Source: Arenimonas daejeonensis
Lineage (GTDB): Bacteria; Pseudomonadota; Gammaproteobacteria; Xanthomonadales; Xanthomonadaceae
Direction of reading: 5' to 3'
DNA: 64,000 nt
Assembly: GCF_007993735.1 (NCBI RefSeq)
Contig: NZ_CP042453.1
Coordinates: forward strand, 2,480,001 to 2,544,000
Shown: piece after piece, positions 17,509-21,803 of the stretch
Layout: the number at the start of each line of letters is the position of its first letter
How positions within the stretch are numbered: position 1 is the stretch's first letter
Made by a program: the position numbers and the translations under genes
The notes under the pieces: generated by a model
Seen by the model: the letters and a program-made list of their open reading frames with translations, nothing else
Told to the model about the DNA's origin: nothing
Databases searched by the model: none

Positions 17509-19538
17509 ATGTTCGACGGACTTCGCCTGGCCCATTGGCAGGCCACCCGCCGCCCCGACGGCATCCCTGGTGCTCACCCTGGACCGCTCCGACCAGGGCG
17601 TGAACGCGCTCGCGGGCCGTGCTGGACGAACTCGAGTCGATGATCGAGCGCATCCAGCTGGAACTGCCCAAGGGCATCGTGATCATTTCCGGCAAGGACG
17701 CCGGCTTCATTCCCGGCGCCGACATCAAGGGTTTCGAGGCCATCGCCGCCAAGGGCCTGGTCGAAGACTGGATCCGCCGCGGCCAGCTGATCTTCCAGAA
17801 GCTCGCCGAACTGCGCTGCCCCACCGTCGCCGCCATCCATGGCCACTGCATGGGCGGCGGCACCGAGATCGCGCTGGCCTGTCGTTACCGCATCGCCAGC
17901 AACGACGAAAAAACCCGCATCGGCCTGCCCGAGATCAAGCTGGGCATCTATCCAGGCTGGGGCGGCAGCGTGCGCGCGCCGCGCCTGGTGGGTGCACCGG
18001 CGGCGATGGACCTGATGCTTACCGGCCGCAGCCTGTCGGCGTCGGCGGCGCGGGCGATGGGCCTGGTGGACAAGGTCGTGGCGCGCGAGCAGCTGCTCGA
18101 CGAAGCCGTGAAGCTCGCCCAGCGCGGCACGAAGCGGCCGTTCAAACAGCGTTTCCTGGCCTGGGCCACCAACACCGGCATCGGCCGTGCGTTGCTGGCG
18201 CCGCAGATGGCCAGGCAGGTCGCCCGCAAGGCGCGCAAGGAGCACTACCCCGCTCCGTTCGCGCTGATCGAGACCTGGCGCCGCAGCGGCGGCCTGCCCG
18301 TGCATCCGGCACTGAAAGCCGAAGCGAAATCGGTGGTGAAACTCGCCGGCACGCCGACCGCTCACAATCTGGTGCGCGTGTTTTTCCTGATGGACCGCCT
18401 CAAGGGCCTGGGCGGTAAAGACCATGGCATCCAGAAGGTGCACGTGGTCGGCGCCGGCGTGATGGGCGGCGACATCGCCGCCTGGTGCGCGCTGCGTGGT
18501 TTCGAAGTGACGCTGCAGGATCGGGAGATGCAGTACGTGCAGCCCGCGCTGGATCGCGCGAAGGCGTTGTACGAGAAGAAGGTGAAGGATCCCGCCAAAC
18601 GTGAGGCGACTTCGGCGCGCCTGAAGGCCGACGTCGAAGGTGCGGGCGTCGCGGATGCCGACCTGGTGATCGAAGCCATCTTCGAGAACCTCGAGGCCAA
18701 GCAGGCGCTGTTCGCCAAGGTCGAGGAAACCCTGAAGCCGGGCGCAATCCTGGTCTCGAACACCTCGTCCATTCCGCTCACCGACCTGCGCGCAGGCCGC
18801 AAGGACCCGGCGCGGTTCGCCGGCCTGCACTACTTCAACCCGGTGGCACTGATGCCGCTGGTGGAGATCGTGCGCCACGACGGCCTCGACCCCGAAACCG
18901 AACGCCGGCTCGCCGCGTTCTGCAAGGCGATCGACAAGCTGCCGGTGCCGGTCGCCGGCACGCCCGGCTTCCTGGTCAACCGCATCCTGGCGCCCTACAT
19001 GCAGGAAGCGATCATCGCCTTCGCCGAAGGCATCCCCGGCCCGGTGATCGACAAGGTGGCGCTGAAGTTCGGCATGCCGATGGGCCCGATCGAACTGGTG
19101 GACACCGTCGGCCTCGATGTCGCCGCCAGCGTCGGAAAGATCATGGCGGACTTCCACGGCCAGTCGCTGCCGGAGGCCTTCAAGGTCGAAGCCGGCAAAC
19201 GCGGCAAGAAGGATGGCCAGGGCCTGTACAGATGGGAGAACGGCAAGCCGGTCAAACCCGAAGTGCCCAAGGACTTCCAGGCCCCCGAGGATCTCGAGGA
19301 CCGCCTGGTCCTGCCCCTGCTCAACGAAGCGGTGTCCTGCCTGCACGACGGCGTGGTGGCCGACGCCGACCTGCTCGACGCCGGCGTGATCTTCGGCACC
19401 GGTTTCGCGCCGTTCCGAGGCGGCCCGATCCAGCACATCAAGGCGGTCGGCGCCGACAAGCTCAAGGCGCGGCTGGAGACCTTGAGCACGCGTTACGGCG
19501 GCCGCTTCAAGCCGCGGGCCGGGTGGGATTCGCTTTGA
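17509..19538 (+). CDS. FadB/FadJ-like bifunctional enoyl-CoA hydratase / 3-hydroxyacyl-CoA dehydrogenase (two apparent frameshifts)
   Basis: Beta-oxidation alpha-subunit-like protein. N-terminal crotonase domain (GKDAGFIPGADIKGF, GHCMGGGTEIALACRYRI) and C-terminal dehydrogenase domain with the NAD motif VVGAGVMGGDIAAW, HYFNPVALMPLVEI and GFLVNRILAPYMQEA. The first ~40 residues need two corrections: an extra C at about 17565 (CCTGG) and a lost base near 17611, after which MFDGLRLAHWQ joins VLTLDRSDQGVNAL and AVLDELESMIERI. Repaired length is about 676 residues, slightly short of E. coli FadJ. No thiolase beta-subunit gene is adjacent, so it is probably a stand-alone FadJ-like protein. Confidence 0.85.
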
Positions 19539-19562
19539 GCTGACGGCTGTTTTTGCATCGGA

Positions 19563-19589
19563 AGGGGCGGCCATTGGTCGCCCTTTTTT
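19563..19589 (+). terminator. Rho-independent terminator of the FadB-like gene
   Basis: GGGCGGCC (19565-19572), loop ATT, GGTCGCCC (19576-19583), then six T. One stem position is G-U in RNA. It begins 25 bp after the stop codon at 19538. Confidence 0.85.
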
Positions 19590-19622
19590 CTCATGCCTGC
19601 TGCACCTGGGCCGGCAACACCG

Positions 19623-19688
19623 GGGAAGTGCATACCTCTTTCTGCTCAGTGAAACCTTTTATTTCGCAGAAAGAGGTATGCACTTCCC
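19623..19688. repeat. Left terminal hairpin of the composite element
   Basis: 23-bp perfect stem (19623-19645 with 19666-19688) and a 20-nt loop (19646-19665). The stem half nearest the loop (TCTTTCTGC) and the loop are shared with the right hairpin in inverted orientation; the distal half of the stem differs. Confidence 0.85.
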
Positions 19689-20190
19689 GGCGCCGCCGGT
19701 CGTGTCAGTGCGGTTTCGTGACGGAGTTCTTGCGGGCATCGGCGTCTTGCATACGCGTGTGGCTTCGCGGGCTTCCGCGTGCGAGATCTTTCCTGCGGAC
19801 CGGGCGGTTAAACGGGCCGAGGCCCCTTTTCACCACGCGTCACGTCGCGGCGCGTTCCCCTGAACGCGTCTGGTGCCTTCGGAGCGAGGCCGGAAGGAGT
19901 ACCCGCCGCGCAGCGGCGAAGAGCGGGCGGCGCGATGCGCCTGCCCGGTTTTCGCAAGAAACGCCGCACTCGCCTACAACCCAACCTCGTACGGAAGGCA
20001 CCAGACGCGCGTTCAGGGGAACGCGCCCGCGATAGGCGAGTTGCCGGCTTTCCGTGTTACCCGACTTAGCCAAACGTGATGCGCAGGAAAGATCTCACAC
20101 GCGGAAGCCCGCGAAGCCGCACGCGCATGCAAAGCGCCGATGCCACACCTGCCCTCCCATCAGCGATCCGGATGAACCGCACCGGCAGCG

Positions 20191-20262
20191 CCGGGGAGAC
20201 GAGGGTCTCTTTCTGCGAAATAAAAGGCTTCACTGAGCAGAAAGAGACCCTCGTCTCCCCGG
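20191..20262. repeat. Right terminal hairpin of the composite element
   Basis: 26-bp perfect stem (20191-20216 with 20237-20262) and a 20-nt loop (20217-20236). The loop is the reverse complement of the left hairpin's loop with one change, while the distal stem sequence is unrelated but still perfectly self-complementary. Confidence 0.85.
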
Positions 20263-20296
20263 TGATGACGGCGCCAGATGCTGGCGCCAGTCCCCG

Positions 20297-21717
20297 TCAG
20301 CCGCAGCCCTTGAGCTGCAGGCGCTGCCCCGCACGGATCACATAGGGCGCCCGCAACCCGTTGGCACGCGCCAGCTGGGTGGGACCATCGCAGCCGTGCC
20401 GGCGCGAGATGCTGCTCAAGGTGTCGCCAGATTTAACCCGGTAGGTGCGCGCCGGCGACGCGGCGACCGTTGGCTTGCTGGCGGCCATCAGGTTCACCGC
20501 CAGCTCGGCACGCGGGCCGCTGACGCAATTCTTGTCGTATTCCGGCGGCACCATCACCGGCACGCGCAGTTCAGTGCCGGCAGCGATCGGGTTGTGCGGC
20601 TCGTAGCGCGGGTTGAGGTTGCGCAGCGCGCGGAAATAACCGTCGCGCGGGCCGCCCAGGCAGATCGACAGCTGGTAGATCGAAGCGGGTGCCTTCAGCT
20701 TGAGCACGGTCGCCGCACCATTGACCTTCGGGAACTCCAGGCCGTATTCCTCGGGATGCAGGAACAGCCACGCCGCCGCCAGCACGTAAGGAACGTAATC
20801 GCGCGTCTCCGGCGGCAACTGGCCGTACACCGACGGATCCCAGAAGTCCTTGCCACCCGCCGCGTTCTTCAGCCGAAGCGCGCGGCCCTCGCCGCCGTTG
20901 TAGGCGGCGATGGCGAACTCGAGGTCGTTGTTGAGCTCGGCGAAACGTTCGTTGAAATACAGCACGCTGGCGCGCGCCGCCAACTGCGGGTCGTAGCGCG
21001 TGTCGAAACCGTCGCGCCATCCCAGGCCGAAACGTGCACCGGTGGCAGGCATGAACTGCATCGGCCCGGCGGCACCCGCGCGCGAGACCGCGTGCACGCG
21101 GCCATTGATTCCTTCGCCAGGATGCCGAACAGCAGGGCCTCGGGCAGCCCTGCCTGCTCGTATTCGGGCCACATCAGGAAACGCATCTGCTGGTAGTTCT
21201 CCCAGCTGGTGATCAGGCTGGGGCGCATCCAGGTCAGCCATTCGGCCAGCGCGGCCTTCACCGGCTCGTTCATCTCGATCAGCTGGCGCAGGTCCTGGCC
21301 CTTGAGCAGGGTCACCGAGCGGCCCGCCGCCGGCATGGAGGCCAGCACACCCTCGCCCGCCACCGAACCTTCACCCGCTTCGGCACCGTAGCCCTCGCCG
21401 CCGCCGGCGGCCAGGTCGGTGCCGTGCTGCAGCAGGGCGTCGTAGGCCGCCACGAAACGCGCGACTTCGCAGCCTCGGGTGTCTTCGCAGCGCCTTGCCG
21501 CGGTCGACAGCCGGGCGGTGGCGCTGCGCACGGCTTCCCGGCCGGCGGCGGTCTCGCCCTTGCGCACCTGGGCCAGGCCGGCCCGGTAGTCGGTGCTGGC
21601 CTGCTCGAGTTCGTCGTAGAGCTTCTGGGTGTTGGCTGAAACACGCCGGGCATCGGCAAACCCGGGCGACAGGGCCGAGGCGGCCAGGATCAGGATCAGG
21701 AGGGGCGAGGCGCGCAT
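20297..21717 (-). CDS. MltD-like lytic transglycosylase with LysM domain (one apparent frameshift)
   Basis: Secreted peptidoglycan lytic transglycosylase. Signal peptide at 1-23 (SPLLILILAASALSPGFADA), a helical N-terminal region, a Slt-type catalytic domain with catalytic Glu in FGILAKES followed by GAAGPMQFMPATGARFGLG and AIAAYNGGEGRA, and a C-terminal LysM (YRVKSGDTLSSISRRHGC). The frame changes near 21112, between LAKES and NGRVHAVS; one missing base repairs it and gives about 473 residues. Start is ATG 21717; an upstream in-frame extension lacks a signal-like beginning. Confidence 0.85.
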
Positions 21718-21803
21718 TCGGGGAATCCAGACTACAGGCCGGCAGACTAGCGGCCGCGCCCGCAACTGGGCAAGCCGGCGCTTTCGGTGCCGTGATCAGC
21801 CGC

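Follow-up and report, generated by a model that had tools for sequence, protein, structure and literature searches.

Two hairpins with a common loop and compensated stems belong to a dispersed, near-palindromic element of Arenimonas with two outward-facing half-units

Within the window, i.e., the stretch of 64,000 nucleotides of Arenimonas daejeonensis contig NZ_CP042453.1 analyzed here, two hairpins share a loop and differ in their stems, which raises the question of what keeps the stems paired while their sequence changes. The original prediction attributed this pattern to selection for structure or to a copying process that rewrites both arms together, and proposed a structured RNA family, a protein-recognised DNA hairpin, or a mobile single-strand-folding element. 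Read directly, the right stem has 26 pairs with no imperfection, and the left one has 23 contiguous pairs adjoining the loop, followed by a bulged G and 2 further pairs; the predicted self-complementary lengths of 26 and 23 bp are thus exact for the right stem and describe the contiguous part of the left one. The two loops are each other's reverse complement except at one of 20 positions, and the stem section next to the loop, TCTTTCTGC, is common to both hairpins, just as predicted. As for the distal stems, they do differ and pair with themselves, but they are not wholly unrelated between copies as had been claimed: CCGGGGA opens both, and comparison within the family indicates that both have diverged from one stem. 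A search of the 3.03 Mb genome for the exact pattern TCTTTCTGC-N20-GCAGAAAGA gives 19 matches versus 0 for a reversed-pattern control, so the hairpin pattern is not due to chance.

When positions 19600-20290 are used as a query against the genome itself (G000, one contig, 3,032,442 bp), the whole stretch proves to be repeated, and it also matches itself on the opposite strand. The predicted pair of hairpins is therefore present, and in addition forms the ends of a single element of ~675 bp that is repeated as a whole (Table 1). A listing of hairpins around the G000 matches contains 20 of them (9 left and 11 right), and an additional left hairpin in L017, with an altered stem adjoining the loop, is visible in the alignment of copies. 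In total, G000 carries 10 full elements, the window copy included, and one solo hairpin (L018). The locus thus belongs to an Arenimonas family of dispersed, non-coding, near-palindromic elements composed of two outward half-units that end in a structurally constrained hairpin.

Table 1. Features of the window copy. Element boundaries are taken from the alignment of copies and are precise to about ±5 bp.
Feature	Position	Strand	Details
Whole element, near-palindrome of two inverted half-units	19606-20280	.	self-match on both strands; 9 other full copies in G000
Left outer terminal inverted repeat	19606-19619	+	CTGGGCCGGCAACA (commoner family form CTGGCGCCG...); copy alignment
Left terminal hairpin	19620-19690	- (outward, from mismatch bias)	5' arm 19620-19645, loop 19646-19665, 3' arm 19666-19690
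Left bipartite box	19786-19811	-	TTAACC - 13 nt - GAAAGAT read outward; conserved across half-units
Left inner small hairpin	19852-19867	-	6 bp, 4-nt loop, GCGTTC/GAACGC; half-unit alignment
Central spacer, limits approximate	19880-19990	.	most variable part; longer in several other copies (own-genome copy alignment)
Right inner small hairpin	20009-20024	+	GCGTTC-AGGG-GAACGC; half-unit alignment
Right bipartite box	20066-20093	+	TTAGCC - 15 nt - GAAAGAT read outward; conserved across half-units
Right terminal hairpin	20191-20262	+ (outward, from mismatch bias)	5' arm 20191-20216, loop 20217-20236, 3' arm 20237-20262
Right outer terminal inverted repeat	20263-20280	+	TGATGACGGCGCCAGATG; copy alignment

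Family elements are about 660-870 bp long, with terminal stems of 26-28 bp and conserved loops of 18-23 nt. Read outward, each half-unit consists of the small inner hairpin, the bipartite box, a further conserved block, and the terminal hairpin. Most of the 23 full copies show outer repeats at each end, GGCGCC stands in the outer flank of 50 of 60 hairpins, and the left and right outer repeats of the window copy pair with each other in the predicted whole-element fold. Every pair of the inner 6-bp hairpin forms in 46-48 of 48 half-units, and two of these pairs vary between standard pairs. The first box was defined as TTAGC (accepted variants TTAAC, TTAGA, TTCAC, and TTGAC) and the second as GAAAGAT or similar. 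In the 43 of the 48 examined half-units that have the second box, the spacing equals 15 nt in 34 cases, 14 nt in 2, and 13 nt in 6, and is promoter-like. A sigma-70 consensus scan of positions 19500-20400, itself of low sensitivity, found no promoter-like site, and a terminator scan of the same interval found no site; the latter also missed a terminator-like sequence visible by eye at ~19563-19589, just left of the element, so promoter/terminator scanning is not sensitive here. Rfam reports no match at gathering score in the region 19400-20500, where all ten matches with E<=1 (nine microRNA families and one MH_s10) are well under their gathering scores. The window element contains no convincing ORF, and open frames with gene-like composition are absent from 21 of the 23 full elements; in L048 and L059 one frame overlaps one edge and continues outside. 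Five partial copies have no gene-like frame between their ends, with a flank frame reaching ~60 bp into L066.

According to the DNA search, 12 of 61 genomes have a match, the own genome included (11 in Arenimonas and one, G032, weak). The hairpin covariance model, under which the right window hairpin has E=2.4e-28 while being part of the model-building set, matches 14 of 27 Arenimonas genomes at E<=0.001, two of them (G016 and G021) by a single weak match, and has no match in the other 13. In G011, a more distant Arenimonas, two hairpins with altered loops stand ~600 bp from each other (L112). A scan for the loop pattern across 84,980 species, each represented by one genome and with records near the own genome possibly left out, yields 14 stretches. 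Ten lie in records titled Arenimonas (A. terrae, A. metalli, A. malthae, and MAGs), 2 in a MAG titled Rhizobium that appears to correspond to G022, a genome placed in Arenimonas, one in a Burkholderiales MAG contig, and one in Sphingomonas. The contig filed as Burkholderiales (L080, JAABRA010000173.1) has a family element whose flanks reach 91% identity with Arenimonas genomes, and is probably mis-binned; the Sphingomonas match (L078), which has no hairpin by eye, was rejected as a member. The same loop-pattern search gives 0 matches in viral contigs, and no description of the element was found in the accessible portions of open-licence papers.

In a sample of 297 genomes of the bacterial family, the covariance model matched 28 at E<=1e-5, namely 10 Arenimonas and 18 others with weak scores. 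None of the 18 best non-Arenimonas loci was retained: 12 are by eye a different, CGTC/dRS3-like repeat (CGTCATCCCCGCGAAGGCGGGGATCCAG and variants), L105 is an unrelated hairpin, and L099, L102, L103, L106, and L107 have no hairpin by the criteria applied. The CGTC/dRS3-like hairpins, which occur in other genera of the bacterial family (L091-L098, L100, L101, L104, and L108), have similar stems and variable loops. A further observation concerns the assemblies of G002, G009, G010, G018, G022, and G026, where several contigs start or end inside a hairpin or a few hundred bases from one; since draft contigs often stop at hairpins, a parent copy with a gene could be missed.

Identical stems in all copies, or the lack of any other copy, would according to the original prediction have reduced the pair to a simple duplication. 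The copies found elsewhere have different and compensated stems, which rules this out, and covariation is very strong. Among 60 aligned terminal hairpins, read outward, 98.5% of 1976 cells pair (predicted structure plus one loop pair), and 28 of 33 pairs are altered on both sides. The covariation score of 0.505 compares with 0.174±0.007 in shuffles (0 of 500 as high) and with 0.070-0.100 when slid. One stem pair is G·U in 47 of the 60 hairpins. The loop ends are GA...GA, i.e., tandem G·A read outward, which is partly imposed by the hairpin finder, and the loop pair that follows is Watson-Crick in all 60 hairpins (A-U 45, C-G 13, and G-C 2). The finder used for this set missed 18-nt loops. A second one collected 72 distinct hairpins with a loop that starts with G and ends with GA and with 12 of 14 inner pairs, so that those features are partly built in; there, the same covarying loop pair is Watson-Crick in 70 of 72 (A-T 50, C-G 14, G-C 6, and T-T 2).

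The mismatches left in the stems are biased with respect to strand. Reading outward means taking the right hairpin on the + strand and the left one on the - strand, the orientation being set by the loop and not by the mismatches. In this direction the first set of 60 hairpins has 30 G·T versus 4 A·C; with five hairpins judged solo from their flanks removed, the numbers are 26 versus 1 (13 versus 1 as position/type classes). The 72 distinct hairpins contain 40 G·T, 5 A·C, 23 other, and 1786 Watson-Crick pairs (17 versus 2 classes), where 16 of the 40 G·T cells belong to a single position, 23, and the cells are therefore not independent. Because the second finder treats G·T and A·C alike, the bias is not built in. 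It appears that the fold of the outward strand is the one being kept, and a need for the outward single strand to fold, whether as RNA or as DNA, would lead to such a bias. G·T pairs in DNA too, so the bias does not demonstrate RNA. The outward strand is also opposite to the transcripts that convergent neighbor genes would send into the element. Beside the element, an SLT/LysM-like gene (window 20297-21765, - strand) consists of two overlapping ORFs in different frames and thus may be frameshifted or carry a sequencing indel; assembly indel errors could explain a few of the stem mismatches as well.

Comparison of flanks at 34 loci identifies several shared insertion sites (L014=L049=L057, L016=L048, L015=L061, and L054=L064). 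L014/L049, L016/L048, and L054/L064 provide five hairpin comparisons with 130 stem pairs in all, of which 20 are altered on both arms and 1 on a single arm, and the two hairpins of the more distant L014/L057 again give 20 both-arm versus 1 one-arm change. The stems have thus changed while staying at the same place. Selection followed by quick compensation would produce such in-place change, and a copying process acting on both arms would do so just as well, with the strand bias speaking for at least some selection. Taken to its limit, the copying process would make pairing a mere by-product with no selection at all, both arms being rewritten by hairpin-directed template switching (quasi-palindrome correction, which near-perfect hairpins invite) or by conversion between copies. 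Such a mechanism would account for both sets of both-arm counts and, via conversion, for a copy in G020 that sits at a shared site and groups with copies of its own genome. What it does not account for is that the leftover mismatches split 40:5 in a direction set by the element's own ends, that the loop and the half-unit blocks are conserved in sequence, and that the 6-bp inner hairpin and the single loop pair also vary between standard pairs. We regard an origin by mutation alone as improbable. The copying process of the original prediction agrees with the in-place both-arm changes and is weakened as the sole cause by the strand bias. At one of the shared sites, that of G000 L015, L061 contains at 1010-1083 a different 26-bp hairpin with loop TTCCGGCCTCCTGCCTCCACTT, ~360 bp from the family hairpin, in a stretch bounded by the inverted repeat GGTTCTTCTCCCAAGT/ACTTGGGAGAAGAACC.

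Given the near-palindromic layout, the function might also lie in the long arms pairing with each other, as a cruciform or as double-stranded RNA. Minimum-energy folds of six whole elements do contain 115-291 pairs spanning >200 nt. However, the arms of one element are no more alike than the arms of different copies: own versus swapped identity equals 0.623/0.619 in the main subfamily and 0.684/0.679, 0.725/0.737, and 0.797/0.777 in the other groups, with permutation fractions for the four groups of 0.18, 0.20, 0.92, and 0.33. An earlier comparison, with orientation unsorted, gave no clear excess either. Long-arm pairing was rejected as a selected structure, and we give it hardly any credence as the function of the element. 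A copy-specific base stem outside the element is seen by eye in a few copies only.

The dispersal of the copies can be followed at several loci. The orthologous site of L011 is empty in A. terrae: the flanks match to query base 1663 and from 2398, and the gap between them is 50 bp in A. terrae versus 734 bp in G000. The window copy, whose neighbors were named by eye, sits behind fadJ; A. terrae has no element there (none of its 16 model matches lies behind this gene), and G011 has by eye the same other-side neighbor without the element. No target-site duplication was recognised by eye, the sole empty site (L011) being too diverged at the junction, and GATC at both edges of some copies is self-complementary and so cannot be told from an inverted repeat. 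In the copy tree, five close copies of G000 group together, L013 lies near this group as a sixth, and the remaining four are interspersed with copies of A. terrae. Four copies of G020 cluster, one of them at a site shared with other species, and therefore conversion between copies or repeated insertion must act too. Decay is represented by hairpins whose two arms come from opposite ends of a former element and by copies minus one hairpin; solo hairpins and copies that have lost a hairpin indicate that the hairpin is dispensable. One decayed copy, L065, has a further short palindromic insertion, GTTATTATTCGTTTGAAACGAATAATTGC, at the element center.

Regarding gene context, the neighbor genes of the 11 G000 sites are convergent in 6 cases, tandem in 5, and divergent in 0, so every G000 site follows at least one gene 3' end. 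Among the 55 neighbor pairs from a crude gene call of the window, 11 are convergent, 33 tandem, and 11 divergent. Placement at 3' ends may reflect an insertion preference or survival. The site counts leave out other genomes, whose gene contexts were judged by a codon-composition heuristic, and cover G000 only, where 18 of 20 flanking ORFs have a Pfam match at E<=1e-5 (one, L010 right, under the Pfam cut-off); the right-hand ORFs of L015 and L016 have none, which makes those two gene orientations weak.

Dispersed copies, an empty site, and within-species clusters are what would be seen if the outward-strand hairpin near each 3' end were a single-stranded DNA site for a trans-acting enzyme (HUH/Y1-like, rolling-circle-like) that moves the element. 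The stems could then vary freely as long as folding is kept, with the loop as the recognised part, and this would also suit a conserved loop on a variable paired stem, the one-strand bias, and the placement of a hairpin close to each element end, on the strand that has its 3' end at that side. Against such a role stand the scarcity of gene-like frames in the full and partial copies described above and the absence of a recognisable target-site duplication. Genes for Y1 transposases (PF01797) are found in 21 of the 27 Arenimonas genomes, whether or not these have the element, in no pattern of co-occurrence, and none of the 20 Pfam-tested ORFs that flank G000 copies matches PF01797. REPs have a GTAG tag at the hairpin foot, which is absent as well, occurring in the 5' flank of 1 of 60 hairpins. 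Overall, single-stranded DNA ends used for movement seem less likely than not, yet they come close behind the RNA account.

The element works like a REP/BIME dimer, yet by the tested features it is none. REP dimers, BIMEs, and REPINs are likewise paired inverted hairpins that are non-coding, dispersed, and mostly downstream of genes. REP stems measure 5-13 bp in the GTAG type and 8-9 bp with 4-5 nt loops in the CGTC type (PMC3733652). TnpA-REP recognises one strand of GTAG REPs in single-stranded DNA form, and dimers commonly combine unlike units (PMC3733652, PMC8266576). REP dimers and BIMEs are tens of bp long, whereas the Arenimonas element reaches ~660-870 bp, has no constant tag, and is present in ~10 copies in G000; unlike REPs, its 26-28 bp stems turn over in sequence around a conserved loop of 18-23 nt. 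The suggestion that these are known GTAG or CGTC repeat dimers draws on the inverted hairpin pairs behind genes, on GACG (CGTC on the other strand) in the 3' (outer) flank of 25 of 60 hairpins, and on a weak inner palindrome that the stem arms retain (5.0 of 8 pairs on average, more symmetric than other centers). But the CGTC tag is not constant (6 of 60 have CGTC in the 5' flank), GTAG is practically missing, the stems and loops far exceed those of CGTC REPs, and the inner palindrome, with no covariation (302 observed versus 306±5.5 swapped), was rejected as a kept structure. Membership among known REP/BIME repeats is accordingly very improbable.

Other repeat classes share some of these features. 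The accessible part of the YPAL report gives a length of ~168 bp and target duplications of 3-26 bp, compares empty and filled sites, and makes no mention, for YPAL-type repeats, of conserved loops on compensated stems or of strand-biased wobble pairs (PMC2229807). YPAL/RU-2 of Yersinia, ERIC, RUP, and Correia/NEMIS are similar to the element in being non-autonomous, intergenic, bounded by inverted repeats, and foldable as RNA. The element fits the broad MITE kind in its inverted ends and in its filled and empty sites (L011 and the fadJ locus), and no gene of a parent transposon lies between the ends of the 23 full and five partial copies, bar the two edge-overlapping frames. CGTC-1/dRS3-type repeats (named after PMC3733652) are also long hairpins from inverted repeats. 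Their sequence is different, and their stem looks conserved and their loop variable, which is the reverse of the Arenimonas element. Integron attC sites are hairpins conserved in structure, variable in sequence, and used on one strand; the one-strand structured hairpin would be alike in both systems, and the paired inverted layout differs.

The family is best read as a non-autonomous repeat, dispersed and with two structured units facing outward, which are more likely to act as RNA than as single-stranded DNA; the preference for RNA rests on the wobble bias and the outward-reading conserved boxes. The outward strands of the repeat would act as RNA through two short putative transcripts that diverge; a very stable hairpin would end each of them, with its loop as the recognised part. 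We place slightly less than even confidence in this account. The carrier repeat would spread with the help of the host or of another element and would survive mainly where it follows gene 3' ends. The structured RNA family and the single-strand-folding mobile element offered by the original prediction both stand and may be combined. We tentatively propose that a palindromic mobile repeat here carries structured RNAs of a new family, paired and read divergently, with a conserved loop, a free stem, and many copies that each have their own stem, acting as RNA or as single-stranded DNA near both 3' ends of a moving element; we know of no described counterpart to a structured hairpin near both 3' ends of a moving element.

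The family provides a clear natural case in which stems turn over with pairing kept, with many copies per genome, sites shared between species, and a strand bias that indicates which strand folds. The same system could thereby be used to test two questions: whether selection or hairpin-directed copying is behind the compensated change of bacterial palindromic repeats, and by what means repeats of this kind move without a linked transposase.
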